Below are positions 20,406-39,185 of a stretch of 64,000 bases of DNA, piece after piece. The stretch spans positions 1 to 64,000 of the forward strand of contig JAMLHW010000013.1 in assembly GCA_023954475.1 (NCBI GenBank), read 5' to 3'. Both the position numbers and the translations under genes were made by a program. The stretch comes from Anaerolineae bacterium (GTDB lineage Bacteria > Chloroflexota > Anaerolineae > Promineifilales > Promineifilaceae). Below the pieces are notes generated by a model. The model saw only the letters and a program-made list of their open reading frames with translations. It searched no databases and had not been told where the DNA came from. Position 1 is the stretch's first letter. Each line of letters opens with the position of its first letter.

Positions 20406-23400
20406 CTATTCGATTGTCAATACCCCACCCGCTGATCGGCCGAATACCTCAGGGAAGAATTCCTGCCGCGCCGTCGCCGGCATTACTTGAAACTCACCGG
20501 GAATAACCGGTTGCAAGTAATACGTGTACTGATACGTTCCGGCGGGAAGATACGCCGAACTAAACACAACCTTCTCATCACGGAATTCGATGCCATTAAA
20601 GTACCACCAGCCCCAATATCCGTAACTGTAAGGTGCCGGCTGATCATTACCCGGTTCAAATGCCGTCGATGATGTCTCCAGATTAGGATCAATCGCCTCC
20701 GCACCAGCCGGTAGCGGGTCTTCAATGACCGCGTACGTTAGATCATTAGGCGCGACAATCGTCAGTTCGACACGCACCTGCTGATCAGATGTGACGGTCG
20801 TGATTGGCTCGCAGGTTTCTGTGAGCGGATCGCATGCTGCATCAAAGTATTGACGTGACACCACAATGCCGCGCTCGACCGGGTCCACTTGGTTGGCGTC
20901 GAGGAAGGCGTTGAGATGCGCCGTGTAGTAGAGCACCCCGTCACCCGCGCTGCGCTGAATGTCGAGATAGTTCAACTCGTCGATCAACATCTCGTCGATG
21001 GGAATGGTGACCAAATCGGCACGTGCGACATCAGCCGGTGTGAATTGGCCCTCGGCAACGGGTTCGAAGTTCATCGCCACAGCATAATCGTATGCGGCGT
21101 CGAGTTCACCGGTTGCGGTCATCACATCAGTCAACGCCAACATGCTCCACGCACCTTCGTGCAGTGTGGGCCAGTAGACTAATTCACGTGCCGACATCAA
21201 CCAGCGCACGGCATTGCTGATGATGGTATTGTCGGGATCGACAGTCGCCAGTGCATCGATGACCATCGCTGTGCCGCGCACATCACTGCTCAGGTTGTCC
21301 CAGTCAGGCATCTGGTCTTCCCAATGCGCGCCGGTTGCGCTGAGAATGACGCTGTTGTTGAGGTCTGAAAGCAGGATATCCTGATTGCTGTCGCTGCCGA
21401 TTGCGGCGTATGCGGAGAGCATGAGTGCTTTGGCGTACGGGTCGAGCAAGTCGCGTGTCGTGTCAAACAGTTCGTCGAGGTCGGCGCCCACGTCTTCGCC
21501 TGCTGTGGCGAGAACGTAGAGATAGAAAGCCTGCCGGTTGGCGTCGGATGTGGTTTTAAGTGTTTCGGCCGAAACCAACGCCCGATCCACGAATGCGATG
21601 CCATCTGTAATCACCTTATCTGAGACATCATAGCCCGCTTCATCAGCCTTCAGCAAAGCGAATAGCACATAAGCGCTCAGGTATTCGTCTGTTTCCGGAC
21701 TGCCGCACCAACTCCAGCCACCATTGCTGTGTTGAGTCTCTTCGATTGTTGCGATTTGTAGCGGAATTTGCGCATCGAGGTCAGCCTGTAGCAGTACATC
21801 GCTAAAGCTCAGATCGCGCAGTGCCAGCGCCATGGCTGAATTGGGCAACAGGTAGCTGGCGGCGACATGGGCACATTGGTACAGTGCATCCTGCTCGTAT
21901 TTGAGCGCTTCGAGGCCATCGAGAATTCCGGATGCCAGCGATGCATTCAGCCGCAGCTTGACATCGCCAATGCGTGTGTCAGTGATCGGTGGCAGCAAGA
22001 TTGCTTCGACACGACGTCCTTCCTGGTCAAAGCTGCCTGCAGTTGCCGTAAAGTCTGATGCATCAAAGCGGTAGACGGGTAATGGTTCACCCCGGCTGAC
22101 AGTCGGCTTGCTCGCGTCGCTGTACTCGCCGGCATCGACACTGAAGACGAGATCAGATTCATCGACATCCAGCACCGTAACCGGCCAGCGCACTGCTTCG
22201 CCGCTGTGCGCGGGAATGGTCACGCTGATTGTTTGCGATGCAGCCGTCGGGTCGTCGGTAAAGATCAAACCGGTCGCTTCCAGCGTCACAGCCGCTTCAA
22301 CCGGCGCATCGGTATTGTTATTGACCACCGCACCGAGCGAAACTTGGTCACCGACAGTGAAGAATCGCGGCGTAATCGGCCGAATCAGGACCGGTTTCGT
22401 GGCGATAATGTCTACATCATCCTGGCCTACGAGCGTATCGACGGTCGCCGCTTTGGCGCTCAACCGCCACGTCGTCAGATTGTCCGGCAAGTCAACGGTA
22501 ACAGTCGCCTGTCCTGCTCCGTCTGTTGTCAGGCGCGGCTCCCAATATGCTGTATCGCGGAAATCCTGACGCACGCCGTCACTGCCTTCTTCCGAGCGCA
22601 GGGCGAGCGATTCAGCCGCCACATCGCCACCACCGCCACCGCCACCGTACCCGCCCAGATTGGACGGTTCGGTGATTGCCAGGCCCTCACCGGAATAAAG
22701 GATACCTGAGCCAATTTGGCTGCGATAAGGTTGGCGAGAGTAGAAAGCTTCGAGAATATCCGGTGCATTATCGGGTTTGAGCTGCAGTACGGCCAGATCG
22801 ACCATTGCCAGTGAGAAATCGGCCGAAACCGGATTGCCGTCCGCGTCTGTAATGGTGATGTCGTATGTCACGTCAGCGCCGGGCGAGACCACATCTTGAT
22901 CGGGACTGAGTGCCAATTCGAGGCGCAGACCTTCCGGCGAAACGGGAATTTCGGTGATGCCCAGACGCATATCGGCCCACGGGCGATCACTGTCGTCGAC
23001 CGGTTTGATGGCGACAATGGTGACGAATACGTTCGGCGCATAATCGGCCGAAAGCGGCAATTCGAGCACCGTGCTGCCGTCAACTGTAATCAGCCGTTCC
23101 TCGATTTGCTCGCCGCGCTCAATGACCAGCCACGCTGTAATCGGTTCCGGGAACGGTGATTGCACGAGTATGCGTGCCGTATCGCCGACTTTGTATTCCT
23201 GTTGATCCGCAACGAGCGTCATTTTGCGATCTTGCGGATCGAAGCGCCACGCTGCGTACCCCTCTTCCATCACCCAGAAATCGAGATTGCTGACCTGCGT
23301 GCGACCGCCACTATCGGTCACGGTGGCTTCAGCGACATAGCTGCCGCCTTTGTCCGGCACGAACGTTGCCGTTGCGGCACCGTTGCTGTCCGTGGTTACG

Positions 23401-26400
23401 GCGACACGCGCCACTTCCGTGTCTACCGGTTCCCAGTACACTTGACTGGGATTGAAGTCGTCGCGAATACTGCGCCATTCACGCTCGTAGAAAACAACTT
23501 CTACTGCTGCATTGGGTACGATGTCGCCGTTCCAGTCAACGGTGCGTAGTTCGACTTCCGTTTCTGTTTCGGCCGCAGCGATCGGCTGCGCCATGCCGAT
23601 GCCGACATAGGTTTCAGCCGCGTGTTGTACAGCCGTTGTCCGTGCGCTGGTCAAGAAACCGGTCAGATCAGTGACGGTGGCTTCGAACATCAGATTACGG
23701 CTGCCTTCCGGCATGGCAGCAAGCGCATCGGCCGAAATGTCGACAACGAGTTGGCCGTTGCCGTCCGTTTTGCCCATACCGTCGGCAATCCATTGAGAAC
23801 TGGAAACACCAATCCCGATGAACGGGTTCCACGGCTGATACGCACTGGGCGCAAAACTGTACTGGTAGTTGCCGGTGTCCAGGTAATATGGCTCACTCGA
23901 CAAAGACCAGGTCACGTCGAGATCGGCCGCCGGGCCGCCGAAGAAGTAGCTGACATCGACGGTGAATTGCGCCGGTTCGCCGCGCAGACCTTCGTCAACC
24001 GCTGCCGTGGAGGTCACGAGAATTTCCGGTGCCCGGTATTCGGCAACGGTGAACTCGCGATTTGAGTTGTAGTCAAAGTCGGGTGAGTCGATGATGATGT
24101 TGTACGTGCCGAGTGTGGCGTTTTCGGGAACAATGTATTCGGCCGAAAAGCCGCCGTTCTCATCCATCACGACTTCAATCGCTTCTTCTTGCGTTGCATT
24201 TTCCGTGTAACTGTAAGCGGGCAATAGTTTGAGTGTTACATCAGATAGATCCGGTTGTCCGTAGCGGCCGTAATTGGTTGCACGCAAGACGCCGCGAATG
24301 TTGACCGTATCGCCGGGCCGGTAAATGGGCCGGTCGGTGTAGATGTAAGCGTAATAGGGGCGCTCATCCTCCCAACCATAGGTAATGCCAAATTGCCACG
24401 GTTCGACAGACAAACTCCATTGACTGCTGCCTGCGCCAAAACCAGGCTCGCCCGGCGTGCCGGCGACGGCTAGCGTGCCGCTGTTGCGACCATTTTCAGA
24501 TTTTGCCAATGTTGCCAGCCCGTCATTGTCGGTTGTCGCCGAGCCGATGTTCACACCGTCATAGTAAAAAGCGATGTTGAGACCGGCACTCGGTTCGCCG
24601 CTTTCCAGATCAGTTGCCCAGACATGGACATGATTAAACGTTTCTTTAACCACCAGATTGGTATCGGCGACGATCAGCAAGTTGCGCGGATACTGCCAGT
24701 AATAGGCGTTTTCACCCAATTCCGGTGCATCGATATCGAGCAGATAGACACCGGTGGGCAGCACACCGCCATCAGTCGCCAACTCGATTGACTGGCTGCC
24801 CAGTTCGTCTTCAATCGAGCTGACACTGTAAGACCACTCACCTATAGGGTCGGTCGGCGCTACATCGGGATCGTTCACCTGATAGGGTTGACCGAGGAGA
24901 TTAGCCGGAATCGCACCGTCAAAATCGTATAGACTGACATCAAAACCGGAAACGCGTCGATAAACCACATCGACAATAGATGGAAAACTGGTGCTCAATT
25001 GGCTTACATTGGGCGGTAGGTTGAATGTTGCTAACGGCTCATAATCGGCCGTTGTAAACGACCACATATAATCTTCACCCATTTTGTTGCCGTAAATGTC
25101 TTCGACATCGCCTGAAAGCGTAACCTCATACGTTGTGTTGCGTTCCAGCAGCGTGTTGATGAACATGAACTGGCTTTCGGGCCAGAAATCGATTCTGTAT
25201 CCGTCGAGCGGCTCCGGTGAAATGGTGATGCTGTTCTCCAGCGTGTCGCCATTCATCGGCGAGACAAAGGTGATGTTGATACCGTTCCACGATGCGCCCG
25301 TTTCACGATTGCGTGGGTACGTTTCGTCGACGCCGGGATACGGATAGGTTGTCATGCGTGCGTTGGCGGAGCGTGCCAGTGTCGCGCCGCTTGCCGATGT
25401 TGCGGAGTCATCGACATCGATGCGATAGGTTGTTTCCAGTGCGAAGCTCGGGTCGGGAATGAGCATCATGACCCGATCCCCATCGCGCCACGCAACTATG
25501 TATTCGGCCGAAGGCGTCATTGTCACAGCCGCTTCAGTCGTAGTGCGATCCATCGGCATGTTAAATGTGATCGAAATGGGCTGAGTCGGATCGAGTTGCG
25601 ACGGGTCGCCATCGTGTTCAAACTTGACCACGCTCGGTGGCGCAGTGGTAAACGTCGTGACATGGTCTTCAGCCAATACGCTGCCGACCACATCTTCCAG
25701 CCCGGCGTTGACGGTGACGGAGTACTCCGTGCCACCGTCGAAACCGTTGTCCGGCACAAAGCGGTAGATGCTCGTCGATATCCACTCACCGCTACCGGCT
25801 GTATCTGGTTCGATGGTAAGCGGCTGCGGCAAGTCCTCCTGCTGTGCTGTTGTTACCAGTGGCACGACGGGGCGGTTAAACATAACGGTGATGGCACCGT
25901 CGGCCTGTACGTCTTCTGTGCTGTCGGCCGGGATGACCTGGCTGACATCGAGATAGCCGACGGTTCGGAAATTGAGGCGCAGCGCATCTTGCAACAGCTT
26001 GCCGTTTTGTCCGCGTGCGGTTTCGCCGACGGTGACCTGGTAGAGGCGGGCACGGCCTAATTTGTCGGCCGGTGTGTAGATCAGGGTGTCGTCGCCCGTC
26101 CAGGTGAAGGCACCTTCGACCGGTTCGGCCGATTCTTCACTCTCTGCACCATCCACATCTGTTTCGGCAACTGCGGCGACGGCAAATGCGGATTCGACCG
26201 AAGTGCGATCCATGGGCTGATCAAAGCGCAGCGTGATCGCGCCGTCCAATGTCACCTGTTCACCGGGCAGCGGGCTGCTGTAGACGAGCTGAGGGGGCCA
26301 ATCGGCTATGACAGCCGTTTCCGGCGCGTTGGATTCTGTATCAGTGTTTTCGGCCGATGCCGGCTCGTCTGGTGTCGCAACGTCAGTCGTGCGATCCTCG

Positions 26401-26510
26401 GACGCTGGTGGGGTTGCTGACGGTGTCGCATCTTCACGCGCACACGCTATCAGCGCGATTAACAACGCCAACATCACTATCAAGCTGGTTCCAAAATGGC
26501 GTTTCTGCAT
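20406..26510 (-). CDS. Giant lipoprotein, bacterial alpha-2-macroglobulin family, with SbsA-type Ig-like repeats
   Basis: From ATG 26510, with AAGGAG nine bases upstream, the protein is 2034 residues. A lipoprotein signal ends at Cys23 in LIAC. A Thr/Ser/Glu-rich linker leads to about four Ig-like (Big_5) domains with FDQPMDRTSVE, FNRPVVP, FNMPMDRTT and FVSPMNGDTLE. Macroglobulin (MG) domains follow with TDRPIYRPGDTVNIRG near residue 650. A Gly run GGYGGGGGGGD near 1290 precedes FRDTAYWEPRL near 1316 and LPDNLTTWRLSAKA, the A2M domain. The helical thioester domain has YQCAHVAASY near 1542, where active members have CxEQ, so the trap cannot form a thioester. Likely an outer-surface protease inhibitor or structural protein. 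Confidence 0.88.
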   Translation of the reverse strand: MQKRHFGTSLIVMLALLIALIACAREDATPSATPPASEDRTTDVATPDEPASAENTDTESNAPETAVIADWPPQLVYSSPLPGEQVTLDGAITLRFDQPMDRTSVESAFAVAAVAETDVDGAESEESAEPVEGAFTWTGDDTLIYTPADKLGRARLYQVTVGETARGQNGKLLQDALRLNFRTVGYLDVSQVIPADSTEDVQADGAITVMFNRPVVPLVTTAQQEDLPQPLTIEPDTAGSGEWISTSIYRFVPDNGFDGGTEYSVTVNAGLEDVVGSVLAEDHVTTFTTAPPSVVKFEHDGDPSQLDPTQPISITFNMPMDRTTTEAAVTMTPSAEYIVAWRDGDRVMMLIPDPSFALETTYRIDVDDSATSASGATLARSANARMTTYPYPGVDETYPRNRETGASWNGINITFVSPMNGDTLENSITISPEPLDGYRIDFWPESQFMFINTLLERNTTYEVTLSGDVEDIYGNKMGEDYMWSFTTADYEPLATFNLPPNVSQLSTSFPSIVDVVYRRVSGFDVSLYDFDGAIPANLLGQPYQVNDPDVAPTDPIGEWSYSVSSIEDELGSQSIELATDGGVLPTGVYLLDIDAPELGENAYYWQYPRNLLIVADTNLVVKETFNHVHVWATDLESGEPSAGLNIAFYYDGVNIGSATTDNDGLATLAKSENGRNSGTLAVAGTPGEPGFGAGSSQWSLSVEPWQFGITYGWEDERPYYAYIYTDRPIYRPGDTVNIRGVLRATNYGRYGQPDLSDVTLKLLPAYSYTENATQEEAIEVVMDENGGFSAEYIVPENATLGTYNIIIDSPDFDYNSNREFTVAEYRAPEILVTSTAAVDEGLRGEPAQFTVDVSYFFGGPAADLDVTWSLSSEPYYLDTGNYQYSFAPSAYQPWNPFIGIGVSSSQWIADGMGKTDGNGQLVVDISADALAAMPEGSRNLMFEATVTDLTGFLTSARTTAVQHAAETYVGIGMAQPIAAAETETEVELRTVDWNGDIVPNAAVEVVFYEREWRSIRDDFNPSQVYWEPVDTEVARVAVTTDSNGAATATFVPDKGGSYVAEATVTDSGGRTQVSNLDFWVMEEGYAAWRFDPQDRKMTLVADQQEYKVGDTARILVQSPFPEPITAWLVIERGEQIEERLITVDGSTVLELPLSADYAPNVFVTIVAIKPVDDSDRPWADMRLGITEIPVSPEGLRLELALSPDQDVVSPGADVTYDITITDADGNPVSADFSLAMVDLAVLQLKPDNAPDILEAFYSRQPYRSQIGSGILYSGEGLAITEPSNLGGYGGGGGGGDVAAESLALRSEEGSDGVRQDFRDTAYWEPRLTTDGAGQATVTVDLPDNLTTWRLSAKAATVDTLVGQDDVDIIATKPVLIRPITPRFFTVGDQVSLGAVVNNNTDAPVEAAVTLEATGLIFTDDPTAASQTISVTIPAHSGEAVRWPVTVLDVDESDLVFSVDAGEYSDASKPTVSRGEPLPVYRFDASDFTATAGSFDQEGRRVEAILLPPITDTRIGDVKLRLNASLASGILDGLEALKYEQDALYQCAHVAASYLLPNSAMALALRDLSFSDVLLQADLDAQIPLQIATIEETQHSNGGWSWCGSPETDEYLSAYVLFALLKADEAGYDVSDKVITDGIAFVDRALVSAETLKTTSDANRQAFYLYVLATAGEDVGADLDELFDTTRDLLDPYAKALMLSAYAAIGSDSNQDILLSDLNNSVILSATGAHWEDQMPDWDNLSSDVRGTAMVIDALATVDPDNTIISNAVRWLMSARELVYWPTLHEGAWSMLALTDVMTATGELDAAYDYAVAMNFEPVAEGQFTPADVARADLVTIPIDEMLIDELNYLDIQRSAGDGVLYYTAHLNAFLDANQVDPVERGIVVSRQYFDAACDPLTETCEPITTVTSDQQVRVELTIVAPNDLTYAVIEDPLPAGAEAIDPNLETSSTAFEPGNDQPAPYSYGYWGWWYFNGIEFRDEKVVFSSAYLPAGTYQYTYYLQPVIPGEFQVMPATARQEFFPEVFGRSAGGVLTIE

Positions 26511-26774
26511 GTCAATCTCCTTCAAAATACGCTTCAAGTTGCCTGTTTCCAGTGTAAATGGCTTCAAATTCATTGTCGCATAAACGGCATGCTTTGCATA
26601 GCCGACAAGCTACCGTCATAGCAACTATTTAACGTCGATTTCGGCCGAAATGTTCCAATCGGACGGGATATTGGTGTCTAGTTTTTGGAGTGCCGGATTA
26701 TGCTGCCTAAAACCGTTTGCCTCATGGCTCTATTGTCTTTCCCATGGACAGTGCATGCCGGACACGATGTGTCA

Positions 26775-27314: not shown

Positions 27315-27401
27315 GGAGAGGTGCCGGAGTGGACGATCGGGGTGCTCTCGAAAAGCATTGTGGCCTTGCGGTCACCGTGGGTTCGAATCCCACCCTCTCC
27401 G
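27315..27401 (+). tRNA. tRNA-Ser(CGA)
   Basis: An 87-base cloverleaf: acceptor GGAGAGG with CCTCTCC, a D stem CCG/CGG, anticodon stem GTGCT/AGCAT around loop CTCGAAA (anticodon CGA, reading UCG), a long variable arm characteristic of class II tRNAs, and T stem GTGGG/CCCAC around TTCGAAT. The discriminator is G at 27401 as in serine tRNAs. CCA is not encoded. UCG is the codon produced when the palindrome is read as TCG-GCC-GAA. Confidence 0.95.
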
Positions 27402-27412
27402 CCTTAATTGAC

Positions 27413-28815: not shown

Positions 28816-28926
28816 TGGCGCGGTAGAATTGACCGTCGGCAAGCGTCGCCATAGCTCATGAGGATGTTGGGTGTTTCGGCCGAAAAAATCCTCACATCTC
28901 ACCTGAAAACCACTTCACAAGCCAAT

Positions 28927-28958
28927 CTATATATGTTACTATGTACTTACGTATATAG
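28927..28958. promoter_or_regulatory. Imperfect 32-bp palindrome upstream of the toxin-antitoxin operon (candidate operator)
   Basis: The outer arms CTATATA and TATATAG match perfectly, and several inner bases match symmetrically (GTTAC...TTAC region). It lies 38 bases before the antitoxin start. Phd/YefM antitoxins repress their own promoters by binding such AT-rich palindromes, so this is the probable operator. Confidence 0.5.
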
Positions 28959-28995
28959 TTTGACGAAAGGCTTTCTACTAAACGAGATGAGAATT

Positions 28996-29277
28996 ATGCA
29001 AAAAATCATTGGTGTGACTGAAATTCAACGCCGTTTTCGATCTGTTTTCGACGATGTTGTTTCCATGCATGTTCCGTATGTGCTGACGCGCAACAGCCGC
29101 CCGGAAGCGGTGCTGATTTCTTATGAAGAGTTCTTGCGCTATCAGGAGTTGGAAGAAAGTCAGGTATTGTTGCGCTTTGACAAGTTGGTCAATCGCATGG
29201 TTGCCCAGAATGCAGCGTACAGCGACGAAGAAGTGGCTGCCGATGTCGCAGCAGCACGGGCTGAGATCGAGCGTTGA
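28996..29277 (+). CDS. Antitoxin of the Phd/YefM type
   Basis: From ATG 28996 the protein is 93 residues; ATG 28987 is an alternative three codons earlier. The start MQKIIGVTEIQRRFRSVFDD and PYVLTRNSRPEAVLISYEEF are characteristic of the Phd/YefM fold: an N-terminal DNA-binding half that forms a dimer, and a C-terminal Glu/Ala-rich tail (DEEVAADVAAARAEIER) that would neutralise the toxin. The toxin gene overlaps its stop by one base (TGATG). A long palindrome upstream is the likely autoregulatory site. Confidence 0.85.
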   Translation: MQKIIGVTEIQRRFRSVFDDVVSMHVPYVLTRNSRPEAVLISYEEFLRYQELEESQVLLRFDKLVNRMVAQNAAYSDEEVAADVAAARAEIER

Positions 29278-29708
29278 TGCGAAACGCTCGCGTCGTTGTC
29301 GATACCAACATTTTGGTCAGTGGCATCATTAAGCCGTCTGGTTTGACAGGCGCCGTGCTGCGCCAGCTACGTGACGGCAACTTTACCATCCTCTACGCTC
29401 CGGTACTGCTCGATGAGTTGGTCGATGTCCTCAACCGTCCGCGTATCTGTGACAAGTACCGGATTGCGCACGAAGACATCAAGACGATTGTGGCGTTGGT
29501 CATGTTGCGCGGTGAGGGTGTGACGCCAGACCGTAAAATATCAGTCTGCCGCGATCCTAAAGATGACATGTTTCTCGAAATTGCTGTGGCTGGAGATGCC
29601 GATGTCATCGTCAGCGGGGATGAGGATTTGCTCGTGCTCAATCCGTTTGAAGGGATTCAAATTGTGGCGCCACGAGATTTTCTGCACATGCTGCATGACA
29701 GAGCATGA
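29277..29708 (+). CDS. PIN-domain toxin (COG1569 type ribonuclease)
   Basis: From ATG 29277 the product is 143 residues. The PIN fold is shown by VVVDTNILVSG near residues 6-16 with the first acidic residue, ELVDVLNRPRI with a Glu near 44, and CRDPKDDMFLEIAVAGDADVIVSGDEDLL near 95-125 with the remaining Asp residues. CRDPKDD is typical of the COG1569 group of toxins. It would cleave RNA when released from the antitoxin. It sits directly upstream (about 440 bases) of the large helicase operon, which fits a defence-island setting. Confidence 0.88.
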   Translation: MRNARVVVDTNILVSGIIKPSGLTGAVLRQLRDGNFTILYAPVLLDELVDVLNRPRICDKYRIAHEDIKTIVALVMLRGEGVTPDRKISVCRDPKDDMFLEIAVAGDADVIVSGDEDLLVLNPFEGIQIVAPRDFLHMLHDRA

Positions 29709-30147
29709 CAAACCTCGTCCATGATCTACGGCTTGTGAGCTATTTGCAAAGTGCCAAATTTTGTCGATTTTCGGCCGATAGTATGCAAAATCGATGCACT
29801 ATGGGATAAACGGCTGAAAGTTGGCTGATTATTGAGTTTGTGGAAGGGGGAAATCGGCCGAAATGACAGCAAACCCAAATAGCACGTCGTTAAATATGCA
29901 TTTAGTGACGTCGGTCTTGTTAACACACTTGGAATGTGAGATCGTTGTTCGAGAACACACCGGCAAGATTCTGCACTTGAATGGAAGATTGAGCTTGGAT
30001 TAGGGGGCGTTTTGATAGTAGTGATTACGCCTGATATACTCTGGAAACCGTGCATAAGGTACTGAACGTTTTCTGCGGCAAAACCATTGACAATCGGCTC
30101 CCACCGACCCTAGCAGGTGTTGGTGATAGCAACATCTAGGAAGGGCA
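29709..30147 (+). other. Intergenic region leading to the helicase operon
   Basis: These 439 bases contain no credible gene. Two palindrome copies lie near 29771 and 29852. The region ends with a promoter (30012-30040), a leader of about 100 bases and the ribosome site AGGAAGGG. No terminator for the toxin gene is evident. Confidence 0.6.
30012..30040 (+). promoter_or_regulatory. Sigma-70-type promoter of the three-gene helicase operon
   Basis: TTGATA at 30012-30017, a 17-base spacer, and TATACT at 30035-30040, preceded by TGA. A transcript would begin near 30047 and carry a leader of about 100 bases. This is one of the best promoter matches in the window. Confidence 0.7.
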
Positions 30148-32220
30148 ATGGGACGTATCACATACGAGCAATGGAATGATGCAATCGCATACAAGCTATT
30201 TTGTCCAGAAAATCGAGGTCGACCAGTTTACCTTCAGGTTGATGATGACTTGCTGGCAGAAGTCGGCGCAGAGTTCGGATTAGACCCAACCGCTAGTCGC
30301 AACAGCTTCATTCGTGCCGTTCGCACTCGTGCGGCGCTTGATCGGATGCCTTTGAAAAAGTTCTTCCATCTTCGAGTGTGGGAAAATGATACTTCACTGC
30401 CACCGCCATTTATCGGTTTTCTGGGTTTGTGCGTGCTCGCGGCCTTTGATATGGAAAGAGATGCGAGCAAAGGTATTTCGGCCGCTAATTACTATGCCCG
30501 GTTCGAGGATTTGCTGGGTGCAAGACGGCCGCCTAAGTTTGACGATGTGCACGAGTTGTGGGAGCGGCTCAATCGGTGGTTGGATGAAGATTTGAATGGC
30601 AAGTTCGGCCGATCCACAGCCCGTTATGTAAATCACAAACATGTCGGCTACCCGATTTCACAAGCCTTGGTGCGCCAGACGGATCGCAACAAACTGCCTC
30701 TTTTTTATGAGCGGTGTGGGTTGCAGCCAAATGAGGCAGATCTGCGCGTAGACTTCATCCAATCTGAGCTAGAACAGTGGAGCCAATTGTCCACATTTCC
30801 GTTTGATCAAAGGTTCAAGCGAATATTTGAACGTGAAGATAGCGGCACCATTCGTCAGGTTGCCGAGATGGTTCTGGCCGAATACCAAGTGTGGGATGGA
30901 CGTTCAGTGGAGGAAATTCGGGACGGGGTAGTTTCAGCAGAAATCACTCTTCACTTCGAACCTGATTACGATACCTGCCACCTGTCACTGATCCCACCTG
31001 CATTTAGTCGCAACCATACATGCCTCCCTGAAGGTCGCTACCGGCACGATCGGCTACATTACCAATTAGACCACGATGCGTTCACAGATGAATGGTTTGA
31101 GCCATTGTCTAGCAAGCCATTCTTGCAAATGGTTTTCGCGGGGCAGCCTATTGAGCTTCACCACCAGCAGTACAAGCTGTGGTTCAAGCCAAAACCCGTT
31201 TTGTTATTCCGCAAAGATGACGGGACATTAGGTCACTGGATTTATGCGGCTAGTCGGCCAGAGTTGAAGACATCGTATCAACTCATGTGCCAACCTGAGC
31301 TTTTGCCATGCCTCAAAGAGCATTTGCAGACATGCGCCGAGTTCGAGGGCGAGATTGTGTTGACCAATCCTCTTCTTCAAGGATGGGTTTGGCTACGTGA
31401 TGTCACTTTTGTGCGCCAAACACCAACAGATGATGAACGATTACAGACCGTGGTGCCAAAGCCGCCACATGTTTCGCTCAGTTTGATCGGTGGGCTGAAA
31501 TTGGGTCGCGGGCGTTATCTACAAGGGGGCGAACCCAAACTCAGCGTCAAAGGATTGCAGCAATCAACAATGTTATTTGTCGATGATATTGCCTATGGCG
31601 AGATTGAGCCGACCAATGGTGAAGTTGATTTGGTGGAACTTGGTCTGTCAGCTGGCACCCATCGTTTTCAGATTGGCAAAGATGGGACACAACGCCAATT
31701 TCATATCGTCAAATCGGGTCATCAACCTATAACGACTACCCCACTCGGACATGTTCTGGGGCAAGAAAAAGAGGGAATACAACCCATTCGGTTTGGCTTA
31801 TCGATGGTACCGGAAAACGTGGAACCCACAACCATTTATGTATCAGGGGCGAAAACAGTTGGGGGTAATCAGGTTTCGCTAGCTATTACTCATCCTGTTT
31901 GGGTTACGTGTGGAAGCTATACGCGGTGTTTTATACTCGGTCGATCCCCTCACCAAATTGTCGAGCATCGTCTGCCAAACAGCAACAGCAAACAAAGTAT
32001 TATTTTCCCCGTTCTGTTCAAGCCGCAATGGATTTTGTACGCTCAAGGCAACAAGTGTCGTGTGGAAGCGATTGGTAGCCCAGCACCTCCAACAAAACCG
32101 ATTGCGGCACATGAGAATCACCGCAAGTGGGCGGTGTGGGTGCGTAACGCAAAACCACCCAAGAAGCGACTGGGTCGCATCTGGCAAACGTATTGTAAGG
32201 TGGCAAAGGGAATTCGATGA
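30148..32220 (+). CDS. Unrecognised 690-residue protein, first gene of the helicase operon
   Basis: I do not recognise a family. The start reads YEQWNDAIAYKLF and RPVYLQVDDDLLAEVG. An alpha-rich N-terminal part (about residues 1-250) has SRNSFIRAVRTRAAL and FIGFLGLCVLAAFDM. The middle and C-terminal parts are beta-rich (LIGGLKLGRGRYLQGG near 455, TMLFVDDIAYGEIE near 475, GTHRFQIGKDGTQRQFHIVK near 510), suggesting Ig-like or sandwich domains. No nuclease, methyltransferase or P-loop motif is evident. It is expressed from its own promoter and the next gene starts inside its stop (ATGA), so the partners are stoichiometrically linked. In type III Druantia a large protein, DruH, precedes DruE; this gene and the next may fill that place. 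Confidence 0.75.
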   Translation: MGRITYEQWNDAIAYKLFCPENRGRPVYLQVDDDLLAEVGAEFGLDPTASRNSFIRAVRTRAALDRMPLKKFFHLRVWENDTSLPPPFIGFLGLCVLAAFDMERDASKGISAANYYARFEDLLGARRPPKFDDVHELWERLNRWLDEDLNGKFGRSTARYVNHKHVGYPISQALVRQTDRNKLPLFYERCGLQPNEADLRVDFIQSELEQWSQLSTFPFDQRFKRIFEREDSGTIRQVAEMVLAEYQVWDGRSVEEIRDGVVSAEITLHFEPDYDTCHLSLIPPAFSRNHTCLPEGRYRHDRLHYQLDHDAFTDEWFEPLSSKPFLQMVFAGQPIELHHQQYKLWFKPKPVLLFRKDDGTLGHWIYAASRPELKTSYQLMCQPELLPCLKEHLQTCAEFEGEIVLTNPLLQGWVWLRDVTFVRQTPTDDERLQTVVPKPPHVSLSLIGGLKLGRGRYLQGGEPKLSVKGLQQSTMLFVDDIAYGEIEPTNGEVDLVELGLSAGTHRFQIGKDGTQRQFHIVKSGHQPITTTPLGHVLGQEKEGIQPIRFGLSMVPENVEPTTIYVSGAKTVGGNQVSLAITHPVWVTCGSYTRCFILGRSPHQIVEHRLPNSNSKQSIIFPVLFKPQWILYAQGNKCRVEAIGSPAPPTKPIAAHENHRKWAVWVRNAKPPKKRLGRIWQTYCKVAKGIR

Positions 32221-33104
32221 ACGGTAGTTTGCTACTCTTTTACCTAAGCGAAGTTGGCAATGGAAAGTGGACGCGATTTACAGATGCCCTTGAGGTTGTG
32301 GACGCACGTTGGGGACACTCAACTCATGCCCGGCAATTGAGTATGTTGGGGCATGTGGAATTCGATTTTTGGCACAAGCCACGTATCCGTTGGGCGATCT
32401 GCCAACCTACTTTGGCATGGTTACCAGAGAGAAACGTAAAGAGGCATCGCGCTGTTTTATGTGGCCTCCGCACAGAACCATTTTTGGAAACGCTACGTTA
32501 TCACGCAGCGGTATTGGATTGCGCGCTTGAGATAGTGCCGCAACGACACAACCCAGATGCCATTTTTGTGCAAGCCGGAGAACAATATCAATTGAATCAA
32601 TTGGCAGAAGCGATGCAGTTTGCCAATGAACCGCAATCGGCCGAACGCCTCGCCGAATGTATCCCGCACCTCAACGCTTATCGCCACTTGTGTGAAACAC
32701 GACCAGAGCCGCAGGGGTATGGGATTCGTTATTTTGATGGACAATCGTTGCGGTGGGTTGAGGTGGAAAAATCGGCCGAAAATGGCCTGTATGAATATAT
32801 GATGGTCGATGGGTCAAGAACTTACTGCTACAAAAAGGAGTATGTGTTTACAAAGGTTCCCCGCGATATGGGGCTGTATATGTGGCTCGCCGATGAACGC
32901 AGACAAATTTTACAATACGACACAATCGCACAAACATTGACTGTTCCCCGCTTTGCCGTTTTGCCAACCCTGCTGGCAAGAGCGGCGACTTTGTGCAGTG
33001 GTCTGTTGCCCAAACTGGTCGAAAATACATTTGTCTATCAGAATACTCCAGCACCCGTTGCCTATAACATTATGATCAAACTCAATCAGGTGGTGATGGC
33101 ATGA
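32217..33104 (+). CDS. Unrecognised 295-residue protein, second gene of the helicase operon
   Basis: No family recognised. The protein has LSMLGHVEFDFW near residue 40, WAICQPTLAWLPE near 59, and AVLCGLRTEPFLETLRYHAA near 77, a compact start that looks like a winged-helix or small alpha/beta domain. A middle part has YGIRYFDGQSLRWVEVEK, and a C-terminal helix-rich part has RFAVLPTLLARAATLCSGL. There are no visible catalytic motifs. Its ATG overlaps the 690-residue gene by four bases, and the helicase gene overlaps its own end by four, so it is a fixed member of the complex or pathway. Two palindrome copies lie in the gene (32637 and 32772). Confidence 0.75.
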   Translation: MNGSLLLFYLSEVGNGKWTRFTDALEVVDARWGHSTHARQLSMLGHVEFDFWHKPRIRWAICQPTLAWLPERNVKRHRAVLCGLRTEPFLETLRYHAAVLDCALEIVPQRHNPDAIFVQAGEQYQLNQLAEAMQFANEPQSAERLAECIPHLNAYRHLCETRPEPQGYGIRYFDGQSLRWVEVEKSAENGLYEYMMVDGSRTYCYKKEYVFTKVPRDMGLYMWLADERRQILQYDTIAQTLTVPRFAVLPTLLARAATLCSGLLPKLVENTFVYQNTPAPVAYNIMIKLNQVVMA

Positions 33105-36100
33105 ATGATCCGCAAGCTGTTTTTGAGAGCCTACGCAAACACTATATGATGTATATAGAGAGTCGTTTTCATTTGCGCCACCCTTTGCTGCGCACAGAGC
33201 GACAAGCCCTGCTTAATCAAGACAGGCGCCTTTTCCGTAAACCCGCTATCGAATTTGTGCCACCGTTTGTCTCATCTGGCAAAGCAATGAGCGAAGCATG
33301 TAAGGACATCGACTCATTACCTGATGATTTGGGTGAATTCGCGGCACAGGGTCTATTTCCTGCTGACTGGAAACTGCACCAACATCAGTTTGAAGCGATT
33401 GAGCAATCGCAGCATAAACATGTTGTGATTACTGCGGGAACAGGGTCTGGCAAGACGGAATCGTTCTTGATTCCCGCAGTCGCACAGCTTTTGAAGGAGT
33501 CGCAAAAGTGGCCTAACTTTCAGGCGCGTGATTGGAAATGGTGGGGCAGCACTAGCCGTAAATGGCAACGTGGGAATGAATCGGCCGATCGCAAACCTGC
33601 CATCCGCACCCTTATTTTGTACCCGATGAATGCGTTGGTGGAAGATCAGATGCAGCGGTTGCGCGTTGCGCTAGACAGTGATGATGTGCGTGCCTGGTTA
33701 GACAACCATCGTGGAGGCAATCGGTTTTATTTTGGCCGCTACACAGGCCAAACCCCTGTTTCTGGTCAAGAATACAGAGAGCGAGACGGCAAACAGTTTC
33801 TTGACAAGAGCAAAATTCAAAAGTTGCGCGACGAGCTCAAAGACATTGAGCGCACAATGCAAGCAATTGACCGCGAAATTACCAACGCTCAAACGGATGA
33901 CGAACGTAAAGCTGCAATGGAAAAACGTGCCTTCTTCTCGCGCCTGGATGTGGGTGGCGCAGAAATGCTCACGCGCTGGGATATGCAAAGCCATCCGCCC
34001 GACATCCTGATCACCAATTACAGCATGTTGAACATTATGCTGATGCGCAATCAGGAAGAAAAGATGATCGAGAAAACGCGAGATTGGATCGCATCTGATC
34101 CCAACCATATTTTCACGCTGGTCATCGACGAGTTGCACATGTATCGTGGCACACAGGGGACAGAAGTCGCCTATCTTATCCGCAAATTGTTGCTTCGGTT
34201 GGGGTTGTGGGAGCGTCTTGATCAGGTGCGCTTTATTGCCGCCAGTGCGTCGTTGGAAGAAGATGAAAGCAGTCGGAAATATCTGAGCGAGTTTTTTGGG
34301 GTGGATGGTTCGGCTGAATTCTTCGATATTATCGATGGTGAACGCGACCTACCACCTGGGCCAGTAACTGCTGACCTAAGCCAACATGCCGCCGCATTTG
34401 CTGAGTTTTATGATTCGGCCGATTCACAAGATGCAATTCCTACACTGCTCCAAAACCTATCACTGACCACCAACGAAACCGACTACGCCCATCAGTTGGG
34501 CGACGTTCTTTCACAACTATATTGCCCTGCTCAACTGCTCCACATTTGCCAAAAGGACGGCAATCTACGCACTATTTTGCTGGACGAATTGGCACAACAA
34601 CTTTTCGGAGACCACGCGCAACGGGACGAAGCAACCTACGGCGTTCTCCGCGCCCTCACCGATGCCCGCCAGAAAAATGCACTGTTGTTACCAATGCGCG
34701 TCCACTACTTTTTCCGCAGTATGTTGGGCATTTACGCTTGCTCCAACCCCAACTGTACGGCGGTCGATCCACAGTTCATTGACCCCGCGCATCCACGCCC
34801 TGTCGGCAAGCTGTACAACCAACCACGCATCTTATGCGAGTGTCAAAAAGGGCGTGTGCTGGAACTGCTCTACTGTCAAACGTGTGGTGAGGTTTATTTG
34901 GGCGGCTACAAAGTCGATGATGGCAACGGAAACTGGATGCTGTTCCCCGATCTGCCCGATTTTGAGCAACTGCCCGATGTGCCACACTTCGACAAAAAAG
35001 CGCACAATTACCTACTTTATTGGCCACAACAGCCCTCAAAAGACCGAACAAAATGGCCGCAACTACCCAAGCGCAAAGATGAACCGAAGCGAATGAGCGA
35101 CCTAAACTGGAATCGAGGGGCATTCAGCTTCTGCTTTCAACCTGTATCTTTGCAATATGGCACTGCCAAAATCACAGTGTATCGTTCAGGCCGAAGTTCA
35201 CCCACAGGCTGGATGTATGATGTAAAGGCCAAACACGAGTACGAGGCAGAATTGGCATCAATGCCGCCGTTCCCCATCGTGTGTCCGCATTGTGGTCATG
35301 ATCGTGAAGGCTCATCAAAACGCAAGAACAAGCCAAACCTGTCGATTACTGACAGTCGCGTAACGCGCTCACCGATTGGCTATCAAGTGACTGGTTTTGC
35401 AAAGCTCAATCAAGTGTTGGCAGATGCATTGTTACGGAATCTGACGCAAGATCATCGCAAGCTGGTGCTGTTTTCAGACAGCCGTCAGGACGCGGCGAAA
35501 TTGTCGGCGGGTATTGATCTCAATCATTATCTCGACTTAATTCGGCAATTTATTGCAGGCGTTTCGGCCGATCTCGATCAGCAAATCCAAGCCACCATCA
35601 AGTTTATTAACGGTGAGAAAACAAGCGTAGAAGAACGCCAACTGGCACGCCGCTATCGTGCAGAACACGGTGACGAGTACGATGCGCTCGAAGCGGTTGC
35701 TTATGAAGAAGCAACCCCCACACAGGAGAAATTAGCACAAGAAGTACACAACAGCCTGGGGGCGGCACTGCCAATGGCTGAAGTGCGCCGTAAGGTTGAG
35801 CAATACCTTGTGTCTCTGGGCATCAACCCCGCCGGCCCCCATATCGGCTTGCAATCGTATGAAATTCGCGGCACCAAATCTGCTTTCTCATGGCACACTT
35901 TGTATGATTTTGACAGGAACCCGATCGGCCGACGCAGAACGCTCGAAGATGAAGCCGTCGCACTTCTTGAGAGCATCCGCGACAAATTGTCCGAAAATAT
36001 CGTTCAGGTTCTTTTCACTGGGATGCAAGGTACATTTGAGCAATTAGGCTTGGGCTACGGAACGATCAAAGAGCCTGAAAACTTCACAACCCTCTCTAAA

Positions 36101-38797
36101 GGACTCGATCCCGATTTGGTCTTGCAAGTGTGCAATGCTATTGTACGCATTTTGGGAATGCGCTACCGCTTCCGAGATTTATTTTGGGCGACTGAACGAC
36201 AAAACCAACCCGCTTACCTGACCACCTATCTGGCGGCTGTCAGTCTTCACAACGGGATTGATGCCACCAAGTTAGCAAATGTCGTCTGGGAGATTTTGGC
36301 ACAATGTGGCGTAACAGGTCACTTGGTTGATCCAAACCAAATTCGTGTCCAACTCGCAGACCCAGATAATGGGCTCGTATGGCAATGCCCGAACTGTTTG
36401 CGTCCTCATTTGCATAATGCAGGGGGTATTTGCACAGGGTCAGATTGCGCCCAACCGCTTTCTTCACCTATTCCGCTCAATACGTTCAAATTTAGTGAGC
36501 AACGTGCATACTATGAATATCTCGCCAGCGACGAGGCGGGACAGGCGTTTCGTTTGCATTGCGAGGAGTTGACGGGACAAACCAATCGCGATGATTCGCG
36601 GGATCGCCAACGCTGGTTTCAAGAAGTGTTTTTGACAGAAGGTGAGCGCGAAAATCCGCTAGTGAATGGGGTTGATTTGTTGAGCGTGACGACGACGATG
36701 GAAGCAGGGGTCGATATTGGGTCGTTGTTAGGGGTTATGATGGGCAACATGCCGCCGATGCGCTTTAACTACCAACAGCGCGTTGGCCGTGCGGGCCGTC
36801 GCGGCGCCGGCATGTCGGTGGCATTGACAATTTGTCGTGGGCGCAGTCACGATGATTTTTACTTTCAACACATCGACCGAATCACGTCTGACCCGCCGCC
36901 TCAGCCGTATCTCGACATGAAGCGTGAGGAGATTCTGCGGCGGGCGTTAGCGGCCGAAATTCTTCGTCAGGCATTCCAAACCGTCGAATTTACCGATCAC
37001 GAACCCAACACCAACGTTCACGGGCAATTTGGAACAACCGATGGCTGGTACGAACACGATGATCGACAAAGTGACATCGAAGCGTGGTTGACTACCTCTG
37101 AGCGAAATGTACGTTCCGTTCTAGATGCACTCCTACGACAAACCGCACTCAGGGAGCATCAAAATACATTGGTTGATTACATCACAAATCCTGACAATCT
37201 CTTTGCTGAACTGGATAGAATCGCCCAAGATGAAACATTGCACCAGCAAGAAGTAAGCGAGCGCCTCGCCAATCAGGGCATCTTGCCAATGTTCGGTTTC
37301 CCCACCAAAGTCCGCAATCTGTACCACGAACGCCCCTTGAAAAACATCAGCAAGTGGCCGCCCACACGTGGCACCGTTGACCGTGATCTCGGCATTGCAA
37401 TTAGCCAATTTGCCCCTGGCTCAGAAACGGTCAAAGATAAGGCGATTTTAACTGCTATTGGTGTTGCCAACTTTATTCCGCGTGGTGATGTCGAGCCTGA
37501 TCCCAACCCACTCGGCGAACCGATAGAAGTTGGCATTTGTGACAAATGCAAGTCCGTTCACAAGGAACCAACAGAGGGGGATTGCCCGACATGTTCGGCC
37601 GAGGAATATGTCATTTTCACCATCAGCGAACCGCGAGGCTTTATCACCGACTGTTCCAAAGGGCGACCGTTCGATGGCTACTTTGAATGGGTTCCCAACG
37701 CGACACGACCGCGCATGTTAACGGCAGATGTTGATGATTGGCAAGATGTTGACAATGCGAATGTGCGCCTCTGGTCGAAAAGTCCGAACGATATTTACAC
37801 CATCAATACCAATAATGGTGAGCAATTTGCCTTCCGTCACTTGGACGACAAAAATGGTAAAAATCGCGTTGATCTCAATTGTTGGGTAGTCAAAGAAGCA
37901 TTGCTAGACAGCGATCAGATACAAGGATGGGCGCAAATTCACGGTAGCAGGATTCCAGATTCCGAACCAGAGATGCGCTCGCTAGCAGCGATCAACAAGA
38001 CCGATGTTTTGCTCATCGGGATTGATAACAAGCCAGATCTATCGCAACTCGATTTGAGTTTGATTACGGAGCGGGAGGGGCATCCACAAGTTGTTGCCAG
38101 CCGTCGGGCGGCATGGTATTCGTTCGCTTTTTATCTGCGCAGTGCGGCTGCCAAGGTGTTAGATATCGATCCCAATGAGTTACAGGCAGGATTGCGAACG
38201 GTGGAGAAGGATGGCGTGGTTTCGGCCGAAATTTTCCTCGCCGATACTCTACAAAGCGGCGCAGGCTACGCAACCTATCTTGGTCGCCCCACTGTTTTCT
38301 ACGAATTGTTGGAATATATGCTAGCTGACAATGGGTACAACTTGCGTTCGCATGGCGATGGCAACTGTGACAGTGCCTGCTACGATTGTCTCAAAGATTA
38401 CAGCAATATGGCGTATCATGGCTTGCTCGATTGGCGGTTAGCCCTCGACATGACCCATCTCGCTTTCCTCGATCCAGCACAATATACAGGTTCCCTAATC
38501 GACATTATCAACCTGTCGGGCTATTGGGAAACCAAGCTGGCCGGGTTGGCACAACGCTTCTGCGATGACTTCACTGACTTTGAGGTGTGTAAATTTGGAG
38601 CATTGTATGGGGTTAAATCGGCAATGAAAGGATTTGCGATTGTGCATCCACTCTGGTATGTGAATGCGCCGGTGATTATTGAGACGCAGAGGGAGGCACG
38701 ACGGATGGGAATCGGCCGATTTGGTATTGTAGACATTTTTGAGGTAGATCGTAGACCAGCCAAGGTTTTAGCTGAACAAGTCGGCAAATGGGCGTAA
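33101..38797 (+). CDS. Giant DEAD/DEAH-type helicase with DUF1998-like C-terminus (DruE-like)
   Basis: The 1898-residue protein is a superfamily 2 helicase. Motif I is TAGTGSGKTE near residues 111-120, motif Ia LILYPMNALVEDQM, Ib ILITNYSMLN near 300, motif II VIDELHMYRG near 341-350, motif III AASASLEE. The second RecA half carries VLFSDSRQDAAKL near 787, TTTMEAGVDIG near 1198 and QQRVGRAGRRGAG near 1223-1235. Large insertions contain four paired-Cys knuckles (near 547-600, 728, 1095-1115 and 1480-1498). The tail has TLQSGAGYATYL near 1716 and CDSACYDCLKDY near 1755, the Cys pattern of DUF1998. Length and domain order resemble DruE of Druantia. DrmA or BREX helicases are alternatives. Confidence 0.9.
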   Translation: MNDPQAVFESLRKHYMMYIESRFHLRHPLLRTERQALLNQDRRLFRKPAIEFVPPFVSSGKAMSEACKDIDSLPDDLGEFAAQGLFPADWKLHQHQFEAIEQSQHKHVVITAGTGSGKTESFLIPAVAQLLKESQKWPNFQARDWKWWGSTSRKWQRGNESADRKPAIRTLILYPMNALVEDQMQRLRVALDSDDVRAWLDNHRGGNRFYFGRYTGQTPVSGQEYRERDGKQFLDKSKIQKLRDELKDIERTMQAIDREITNAQTDDERKAAMEKRAFFSRLDVGGAEMLTRWDMQSHPPDILITNYSMLNIMLMRNQEEKMIEKTRDWIASDPNHIFTLVIDELHMYRGTQGTEVAYLIRKLLLRLGLWERLDQVRFIAASASLEEDESSRKYLSEFFGVDGSAEFFDIIDGERDLPPGPVTADLSQHAAAFAEFYDSADSQDAIPTLLQNLSLTTNETDYAHQLGDVLSQLYCPAQLLHICQKDGNLRTILLDELAQQLFGDHAQRDEATYGVLRALTDARQKNALLLPMRVHYFFRSMLGIYACSNPNCTAVDPQFIDPAHPRPVGKLYNQPRILCECQKGRVLELLYCQTCGEVYLGGYKVDDGNGNWMLFPDLPDFEQLPDVPHFDKKAHNYLLYWPQQPSKDRTKWPQLPKRKDEPKRMSDLNWNRGAFSFCFQPVSLQYGTAKITVYRSGRSSPTGWMYDVKAKHEYEAELASMPPFPIVCPHCGHDREGSSKRKNKPNLSITDSRVTRSPIGYQVTGFAKLNQVLADALLRNLTQDHRKLVLFSDSRQDAAKLSAGIDLNHYLDLIRQFIAGVSADLDQQIQATIKFINGEKTSVEERQLARRYRAEHGDEYDALEAVAYEEATPTQEKLAQEVHNSLGAALPMAEVRRKVEQYLVSLGINPAGPHIGLQSYEIRGTKSAFSWHTLYDFDRNPIGRRRTLEDEAVALLESIRDKLSENIVQVLFTGMQGTFEQLGLGYGTIKEPENFTTLSKGLDPDLVLQVCNAIVRILGMRYRFRDLFWATERQNQPAYLTTYLAAVSLHNGIDATKLANVVWEILAQCGVTGHLVDPNQIRVQLADPDNGLVWQCPNCLRPHLHNAGGICTGSDCAQPLSSPIPLNTFKFSEQRAYYEYLASDEAGQAFRLHCEELTGQTNRDDSRDRQRWFQEVFLTEGERENPLVNGVDLLSVTTTMEAGVDIGSLLGVMMGNMPPMRFNYQQRVGRAGRRGAGMSVALTICRGRSHDDFYFQHIDRITSDPPPQPYLDMKREEILRRALAAEILRQAFQTVEFTDHEPNTNVHGQFGTTDGWYEHDDRQSDIEAWLTTSERNVRSVLDALLRQTALREHQNTLVDYITNPDNLFAELDRIAQDETLHQQEVSERLANQGILPMFGFPTKVRNLYHERPLKNISKWPPTRGTVDRDLGIAISQFAPGSETVKDKAILTAIGVANFIPRGDVEPDPNPLGEPIEVGICDKCKSVHKEPTEGDCPTCSAEEYVIFTISEPRGFITDCSKGRPFDGYFEWVPNATRPRMLTADVDDWQDVDNANVRLWSKSPNDIYTINTNNGEQFAFRHLDDKNGKNRVDLNCWVVKEALLDSDQIQGWAQIHGSRIPDSEPEMRSLAAINKTDVLLIGIDNKPDLSQLDLSLITEREGHPQVVASRRAAWYSFAFYLRSAAAKVLDIDPNELQAGLRTVEKDGVVSAEIFLADTLQSGAGYATYLGRPTVFYELLEYMLADNGYNLRSHGDGNCDSACYDCLKDYSNMAYHGLLDWRLALDMTHLAFLDPAQYTGSLIDIINLSGYWETKLAGLAQRFCDDFTDFEVCKFGALYGVKSAMKGFAIVHPLWYVNAPVIIETQREARRMGIGRFGIVDIFEVDRRPAKVLAEQVGKWA

Positions 38798-38804
38798 GTG
38801 GGTG

Positions 38805-39185
38805 TTAAGATTCAGTGTAATCGTTCCACAACTGACTAGACTCGTGATTAGCCTTGTATGTCAGGCTTTCTGCAATCAACTTGTCAATCCGCTGCTCATT
38901 GGCGGGTCGCCAGCCCAACATGTAAGGCACAGACGTGTCGTAGAAACGTTTCTCTTCCAGATATTCGAGCAACTCATCCTTCAACTCACACCTGACGACA
39001 AATTGGTCTGCGAAGTAGTCACGCTCACGGAAATAACGCGCCCAAAAAAGGCGATGTAACCCAGACACCCAGGCCGCCACCGGCAAACGAGAGCTGGAAA
39101 AAGAGCAGGTTGTTGACCATCGAGAAAAATGTTTCGGCCGATCGGCATCCAAACTCCCTGGACTGAGCACGCACAAATCGGTCTG
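38805..39185 (-). pseudogene. Truncated, frameshifted remnant, perhaps of an M48-like membrane peptidase
   Basis: Two frames on the minus strand together make one coherent fragment. The first, from about 39185 to a stop at 39025, reads SAETFFSMVNNLLFFQLSFA then GGGLGVWVTSPF; the second, from about 39045 to 38805, reads FWARYFRERDYFADQFVV and later DTSVPYMLGWRPANEQRIDK. Removing one base from the A6 run at 39044-39049 joins them. RDYFADQF resembles the third zinc-ligand region of M48 peptidases, but no HExxH is present because the 5' part is missing. The fragment lies between the helicase operon (eight bases away) and a glycosyltransferase gene. Confidence 0.6.

Follow-up and report, generated by a model that had tools for sequence, protein, structure and literature searches.

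A predicted Druantia type IV operon in an Anaerolineae genome

Identity of the operon

How a Druantia system without an evident nuclease stops a phage is the question raised by a three-gene operon in the genome of an Anaerolineae bacterium (Chloroflexota). The operon lies in a stretch of 64,000 nucleotides (GenBank assembly GCA_023954475.1, contig JAMLHW010000013.1, positions 1 to 64,000 of the forward strand), which was analyzed as a whole and is referred to here as the window. Three co-directional open reading frames (ORFs) on the + strand, at 30148-32220 (690 amino acids), 32217-33104 (295 amino acids) and 33101-38797 (1898 amino acids), are joined pairwise by ATGA overlaps; a preliminary description of this DNA, made from the sequence alone, had reported the same three genes, with the same coordinates, and the same two overlaps. 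It had read them as a Druantia-like defence operon centered on a DruE-type helicase and as a candidate new subtype. Comparison with the models of PADLOC-DB 2.0, from which the three proteins were named, almost certainly identifies the operon as a complete Druantia type IV system (druF-druL-druE), that is, as a system of a known kind and not a new one.

The protein encoded by druE (33101-38797), a YprA-like superfamily 2 (SF2) helicase, was matched by the DruE4 model (PDLC00051) with 1846.6 bits over residues 1-1891 of 1898, followed by DruE2 (1682.8 bits), DruE1 (740 bits) and DruE3 (404.4 bits). The druF product (30148-32220) was matched by DruF4 (PDLC00054, E = 4.5e-47) over residues 4-688 of 690, and the druL product (32217-33104) by the DruL4 models PDLC00056 (E = 2.1e-34, residues 37-280) and PDLC00057 (E = 7.1e-34, residues 1-293 of 295). 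Judged by its sequence, the three-gene operon is beyond chance: the helicase profile covers residues 1-1891, and 75 of 77 related loci have all three genes as well. Type IV of Druantia, a phage-defence system, was defined by genome comparison in the PADLOC paper of 2021 as the combination of DruE, DruF and DruL, in which the DruM and DruG of type II are lacking, and 168 instances are reported from 11 phyla (PMC8565338). The Druantia-like, phage-defence reading of the preliminary description was therefore supported, by homology and by co-occurrence, while the proposed novelty was not, since the same combination of genes had been published and modeled already. It is extremely improbable that the operon is a Druantia subtype not described before, or that it belongs to a new system related to Druantia, and this candidate was ruled out by the PADLOC scan together with the published definition. 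DruF and DruL have no Pfam family and are strongly divergent (mean column identity 16% and 17%), which would suit such a novelty, but the existing type IV models match all three proteins over nearly their full length. In other words, the two proteins that had been called unrecognised are indeed outside Pfam, but both have models in PADLOC-DB. The finding can be regarded as closed: one more host lineage carries a Druantia type IV operon, and a well-formed one.

The nearest published relative in gene content is Druantia type II (DruM, DruF, DruG, DruE), and a reduced type II that had lost druM and druG was considered as an alternative, which appears improbable. It would account for the high score of DruE2, for the match of DruF to DruF2 (PDLC00023, E = 9.8e-48, partial, residues 5-261), for the match between DruL and the C-terminal portions of two DruF2 models that are long, and for the C5-methylase cluster found in 38 of 87 loci within the DNA examined, the representative of which matched MTase_II best and then DruM2. 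However, DruE4 led DruE2 by 164 bits in the window, while the reverse was seen in the related locus L113 (DruE2 2051.5, DruE4 1282.8), which served as a control and is type II by the same models; because the two loci were assigned to different types, the DruE models do discriminate. Neither druM nor druG was present among the ten neighbouring genes scanned, and the nearest relatives, L031, L032, L033 and L048, had no linked methylase in the DNA examined, although for L031 and L032 this DNA is truncated on the upstream side. At the protein level the line between types II and IV is nevertheless thin and rests on gene content, because the DruE2 and DruF2 models score so near to those of type IV.

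Other types and systems were more distant. Druantia type I has DruA to DruD beside DruE1. In the window the DruE1 score was low, and no DruA-D model matched DruF, DruL or the ten neighbours. The PADLOC scan of these neighbours detected no Druantia component at all, DruM, DruG, DruH and DruA-D included, and two of the ten had generic matches to other defence models; Pfam found no DNA methylase among them, and no DruK nuclease was linked. Like Druantia type III (DruH, DruE), the operon combines a DruE-type YprA helicase with an accessory protein that has a predicted immunoglobulin (Ig)-like domain, here DruF (on weak fold matches) and there DruH, and in both systems the partners are more divergent than DruE. 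Unlike type III, it showed no DruH match in DruF, DruL or the ten neighbours, and only 404.4 bits to DruE3. The type III DruE carries phospholipase D (PLD) nuclease domains (PMC13192584), whereas the C-terminus of DruE in the window has no conserved acidic residue. YprA-family helicases with zinc-binding modules are also found in ARMADA, DISARM and Dpd systems (PMC12458937). DruE shares this architecture, but the models from these systems and from BREX gave partial matches only (DpdJ 76.1, DrmA 41.5, BrxHI 28.5 bits), and there was no PglX-like methylase or BrxHII-like helicase among the ten neighbours. The preliminary description had proposed that the helicase be compared with hidden Markov models of such families, and in this comparison DruE was the clear winner, with no grouping with a non-defence family.

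Conservation of the gene trio

Conserved co-occurrence of the three genes, which the preliminary description had suggested surveying, was found in nearly all relatives. An alignment of seven DruE sequences was used to scan the contigs of GTDB-species genomes. This gave 512 relatives, and the best 80 of these and six loci on viral contigs made up a set of 86. Nine had less than 2.5 kb upstream of druE and were set aside, which left 77 testable loci. Both druF and druL were present in 75 of them, including one (L070) in which druL was apart and on the opposite strand; the exceptions were L112 and L113. Contiguous genes, with gaps of less than 100 nucleotides, were seen in 58 of the 66 unfused trios encoded on one strand, and the F-L-E order of the window was that of these 58. 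In nine of the 86 loci druF and druL formed one ORF, and in L045, the one that was checked, both parts were confirmed by PADLOC. These fusions suggest a single working unit made up of DruF and DruL.

The operon differs from other type IV systems of this gene content by divergence only, with identities to the nearest relatives of 45-52% for DruE, 38-42% for DruL and 32-34% for DruF. In a quick DruE tree, the window grouped with L031, L033 and L048 (Shimodaira-Hasegawa-like approximate likelihood ratio support 99) and then with L032 (support 100), all from Chloroflexota. The distribution of the system was patchy. Exactly three of 59 genomes searched, the window's own (G000), G024 and G029, had druL, and the same three had a druE of more than 1700 bits; a further 30 of the 59 had helicase matches that were partial only (E = 7.8e-16 at best). 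These counts are not independent of the survey of relatives, since L033 is G024:C100 and L031 is G029:C496 by match position. Among 400 genomes sampled from the phylum, the window's own included, the DruE4 model matched 13 at E ≤ 1e-100, a count of model matches and not of types.

The DruE helicase

DruE appears to be an intact helicase. The Walker A motif (TAGTGSGKTE, residues 111-120), the DELH box (D343-H346), which the preliminary description had noticed, and a motif VI-like QQRVGRAGRR (residues 1225-1234) were all present, and conservation of the helicase motifs and cysteine clusters reached at least 95% over 69 aligned rows. With a threshold of 80% of the 69 rows, the cysteine pairs or clusters that are conserved number nine, so that the four cysteine knuckles given earlier were an undercount. 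Pfam recognised a DEAD domain and, at residues 1678-1764, the MrfA Zn-binding domain (MZB, DUF1998-type; E = 1.4e-5, 26.1 bits against a cut-off of 24.2), in agreement with the DUF1998-like tail that had been predicted. Among structures in the PDB, 9wae (1970 amino acids, annotated 'Helicase') aligned over residues 3-1897 (E = 7e-175), 9tu7 (2108 amino acids) matched in part, and 6znp (YprA) was a distant match (E = 1.2e-6). The C-terminus (residues 1790-1898) kept HPLW, F and RRP, with no acidic residue at 70% or more over the 69 rows. An inactivated Vsr domain has been reported for Druantia types I and II (PMC12458937), and the acid-poor C-terminal sequence is consistent with such a domain.

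The MZB domain, which is common to DruE and MrfA, and the distant match to YprA could also be expected if the operon encoded a DNA-repair helicase of the YprA/MrfA kind, with no role in defence. There is very little chance that this is so. The size of the helicase, its full-length match to DruE and its partners are those of Druantia. The patchy presence of the operon, in three of 59 genomes including its own, also speaks against a repair role, as do its absence in two relatives in which flanking genes remain near each other and the frequent linkage, in relatives, to methylase, Vsr, DruK and Septu-like genes.

DruF and DruL

Neither partner protein could be placed by sequence in a characterized family. 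DruF had no match at E ≤ 0.1 in Pfam or NCBIfam, the only NCBIfam match of the two proteins was at chance level (E = 0.037), and none of the three operon proteins matched NCBIfam above its curated cut-offs. Sequence searches of the PDB gave best E values of 0.98 and 0.99 for DruF and DruL as single sequences and of 0.25 and 0.012 as profiles, and Foldseek searches of the PDB with their models gave no match at E ≤ 0.001. In literature searches on DruF and DruL with domain terms, DruF was named only in the PADLOC paper among the matches. Structure models are now available for these two proteins, which PADLOC lists as of unknown function.

AlphaFold2 predicted DruF with a mean predicted local distance difference test score (pLDDT) of 85.4 and a predicted template modeling score (pTM) of 0.66, and DruL with values of 95.4 and 0.92. 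The DruF model consists of a helical region (about 1-260), an alpha/beta region (about 261-440), a beta-sandwich resembling Ig or fibronectin type III (FnIII) domains (about 441-525), a beta-rich region (526-645) and C-terminal helices. Its fold matches fell mostly at 441-524 and reached Z 7.8 (root-mean-square deviation, rmsd, 2.3) over about 75 residues, with none at Z 8 or more. The DruL model begins with a part that looks winged-helix-like (about 1-100) and is alpha/beta in the remainder. The N-terminal part was matched by the DNA-binding regulators HxlR, RosR, YodB and MarR and by similar chains (Z 5.0-5.6, rmsd 3.1-8.1, 72-89 residues), and residues 58-140 by eIF1 (Z 4.9). All of these Z values fall under the level that the tool trusts, and the fold-comparison (VIA) lists barely cover large parts of both models. 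With this in mind, the start of DruL looks winged-helix-like in the model, and DruF looks as if it has an Ig/FnIII-like domain.

The evolution of the partners was compared with that of DruE from pairwise identities in 69 trios, the window included. For pairs with a DruE identity of 0.3-0.4 (1701 pairs), the medians were 0.36 for DruE, 0.21 for DruL and 0.18 for DruF, and the first Ig-like segment of DruF, at 0.19, was not below the whole protein. For pairs in the 0.4-0.55 band (518 pairs), the Ig-like segment was the best conserved part of DruF (0.25). The idea that DruF resembles the DruH sensor in having an Ig region that evolves fast was rejected, as the Ig segment evolves no faster than the rest of DruF; a sensing role for DruF is still put forward as an inference.

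A possible mechanism

Work on Druantia type III offers the closest guide to how the operon might act. The type III DruE unwinds DNA, preferring 3'-tailed and forked substrates, and DruH, with its Ig-like domains, is the likely sensor (PMC13192584). By analogy with these results and from the models, a sequence of steps can be put forward tentatively. The core of the system would be DruE, which would load on phage DNA that is branched or has a 3' single strand, and would unwind it. As one functional unit, DruF and DruL would sense infection, contact DNA, or both, and would license DruE. The phage genome would then be blocked, or passed to a nuclease from outside the operon. In other type IV loci there are additions: DruK (a PD-(D/E)XK nuclease), a C5 methylase, Vsr or other modules.

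A more specific proposal, which is doubtful in this complete form, is that a three-gene Druantia IV has no nuclease of its own: a sensor-like DruF, through its Ig-like domain, and a DNA-contacting DruL, through its winged-helix-like domain, would license a translocating DruE, which would block phage DNA or feed it to host nucleases. Killing (by DruK) and self-marking (by a C5 methylase or, in one clade, by a module of weakly DpdA-like and BrxC-like proteins) might then be optional plug-ins that are swapped among lineages.

It is also conceivable, if rather unlikely, that DruF or DruL hides an unrecognised nuclease and that the three-gene core itself cuts DNA. No convincing fold match was obtained for the middle of DruF (261-440), which the comparison barely covers, and nuclease activity was demonstrated for the type III protein DruH, despite its assignment only to the poorly characterized YjiT family (PMC13192584). 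On the other hand, over the 69 rows DruF had no D, E, H, K or R, and DruL no D or E, that reached 80% conservation, in an alignment that may be imperfect at such divergence. Nothing resembling a conserved set of nuclease residues was seen in DruF, DruL or the DruE C-terminus.

Taken as a whole, type IV identity combined with the mechanism outlined above is probably the best explanation of the locus. Several observations weigh against it. The literature searched, from which most subscription journals were absent, yielded no experiment in which a type IV system was tested against phage, and the experiments in the available part of the PADLOC paper concern Zorya III, Hachiman II and Lamassu II, with Druantia IV not among them (PMC8565338). 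The locus L112 shows that not every close relative fits type IV: its druE is nearly tied between DruE4 (1223.9) and DruE2 (1196.5), its DruF is weak and its DruL is absent. In the window itself, the sequence score of DruE2 is close behind that of DruE4, and DruF2 equals DruF4 as a model for DruF. The fold matches of the predicted structures are weak for both partners, and the finding that the Ig-like region of DruF evolves no faster weakens the analogy with DruH.

Genomic neighbourhood

Upstream of the operon on the + strand lies a toxin-antitoxin (TA) pair, outside the Druantia core, which confirms another element of the preliminary description. It consists of a Phd/YefM-type antitoxin (28858-29277; PF02604, E = 7.9e-12) and a PIN_3-domain toxin (29274-29708; PF13470, E = 6e-21). 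An unproven promoter-like site of the operon, TTGATA-17-TATACT, was found on the + strand at 30012-30040, with 10 of 12 matches and a TG ahead of the second hexamer. The promoter reported earlier is therefore present as a site but is not established as a promoter, because five such sites occurred in the 9.65-kb region and 10.7 (standard deviation 3.2) in shuffled sequences, so that there was no enrichment. At the right edge of the operon, on the - strand, 38805-39176 is probably the C-terminal remnant of a capsular polysaccharide synthesis gene. It covers positions 159-262 of 278 of Caps_synth (PF05704, E = 1.5e-4), and the gene remnant noted before is plausible on this partial match, although its score (21.7 bits) is under the Pfam cut-off of 24.5.

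Neighbouring genes were named from Pfam, except for an alpha-2-macroglobulin-like protein and TadA, which were named by reading the sequence. In two relatives, flanking genes were close together with no Druantia between them. The order in G008 (L129) was alpha-2-macroglobulin-like, TadA, DUF1684, one 529-amino-acid ORF, relatives of the 508- and 521/531-amino-acid proteins of the window and the Wzt-like ATP-binding cassette (ABC) protein. In G018 (L130), TadA, DsbA-like and DUF1684 genes were two ORFs away from the relative of the 521/531-amino-acid proteins, Wzt and the 842-amino-acid relative. The other five of the seven relatives compared do not show the junction: in L127, L132 and L133 the sequence ends just past DUF1684, and in L128 and L131 the neighbours differ. 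In the window, 28858-38797 (about 9.9 kb), comprising the TA pair and the Druantia operon, sits at the junction seen in G008 and G018, and this arrangement fits acquisition of the 9.9-kb stretch as an insert. Only short, imperfect repeats were seen in the search for mobile-element ends around the operon. A tRNA-Ser gene is located at 27315-27403, and its use as an integration site was unsupported, as DsbA-like, DUF1684 and TA genes separate it from the operon. The alpha-2-macroglobulin-like gene encodes 2055 amino acids at 20406-26573 on the - strand, and it lies beside TadA both in the window and in three of the seven relatives' stretches.

Accessory genes in related loci

Accessory gene clusters were counted over 87 loci, the window included, each cluster being named from one representative. 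In addition to the C5-methylase cluster described above, a PD-(D/E)XK nuclease cluster, DruK by PADLOC, was found in 22 loci (for example L032:5505-6680), directly after druE in 19 of the 22; counted over the loci that extend 1.2 kb or more downstream, the figure is 22 of 67. No paper naming both Druantia and DruK was found in the literature searched, which again held few subscription journals. Vsr formed a cluster in 15 loci. Many type IV relatives have DruK or a methylase alongside, whereas the operon in the window has neither, nor any other of these accessory clusters. The same was true of 31 of the 87 loci within the DNA examined, several being short contigs. Among the nearest relatives, L031 and L032 had DruK, and L033 and L048 did not.

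Eight loci (L056, L058, L064, L070, L073, L076, L103 and L114), most of them with a short DruF and a long DruL, had a further module beside Druantia. It is made up of an ATPase that resembles BrxC, an unknown protein about 280 amino acids long and, in seven of the eight, a GNAT/DpdA-like protein. The BrxC-like match was just under the Pfam cut-off (22.1 bits against 22.2), and the DpdA-like match was weak (E = 4.5e-6). None of the eight overlapped with the C5-methylase cluster (Fisher p = 0.0086), but this is not independent evidence, because the module rows all belong to one 22-row clade of the quick tree, which carried long-branch warnings.

Two further arrangements were noticed. In the Poribacteria loci L069, L075, L086 and L100, a gene lies between druF and druL, and its representative matched DruC1 over 22-318 (E = 1.3e-20). 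It also matched several coiled-coil models, and the DruC-like assignment was not built upon. In five Streptomyces loci (L051, L052, L054, L066 and L082), druE is followed by a gene pair, the representatives of which matched PADLOC PDC-M01A (also Septu PtuA-like) and PDC-M01B.

Elsewhere in the window's own genome, a 178-amino-acid ORF at G000:C21 weakly matched the DruK profile (E = 1.8e-11, positions 136-260 of 347), and one C5 methylase was detected, at G000:C20:410607, unlinked to the operon. Both were considered as partners of the operon, and neither counts as evidence of a partner. The methylase heads an overlapping three-ORF operon of its own (G000:C20:410568-415127, equal to L135:5569-10128) that encodes proteins of 428, 793 and 300 amino acids, the last two of which matched no PADLOC model at E ≤ 1e-5.

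A genome-wide octamer

What is most unusual here does not belong to the operon finding: the genome-wide palindromic octamer TCGGCCGA. It occurred 91 times in the window, against 1.54 expected from shuffled sequences. The whole genome of 5.12 Mb had 7,668 copies, compared with 125 of a reversed control and with 0 to 1,326 copies in 39 relatives. It resembles the cyanobacterial HIP1, and the terms CGGCCG and Chloroflex were not found in the available part of a paper on HIP (PMC4390886). In a bolder and speculative extension, the over-represented octamer could be a self mark in this host. Inside the operon there were 10 copies in 8,650 bp, near the genome density, and none in the homologous stretches of L031, L032 (druE only), L033 and L048. 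Because the octamer is near genome density here and missing there, the operon has probably resided in this lineage for some time.

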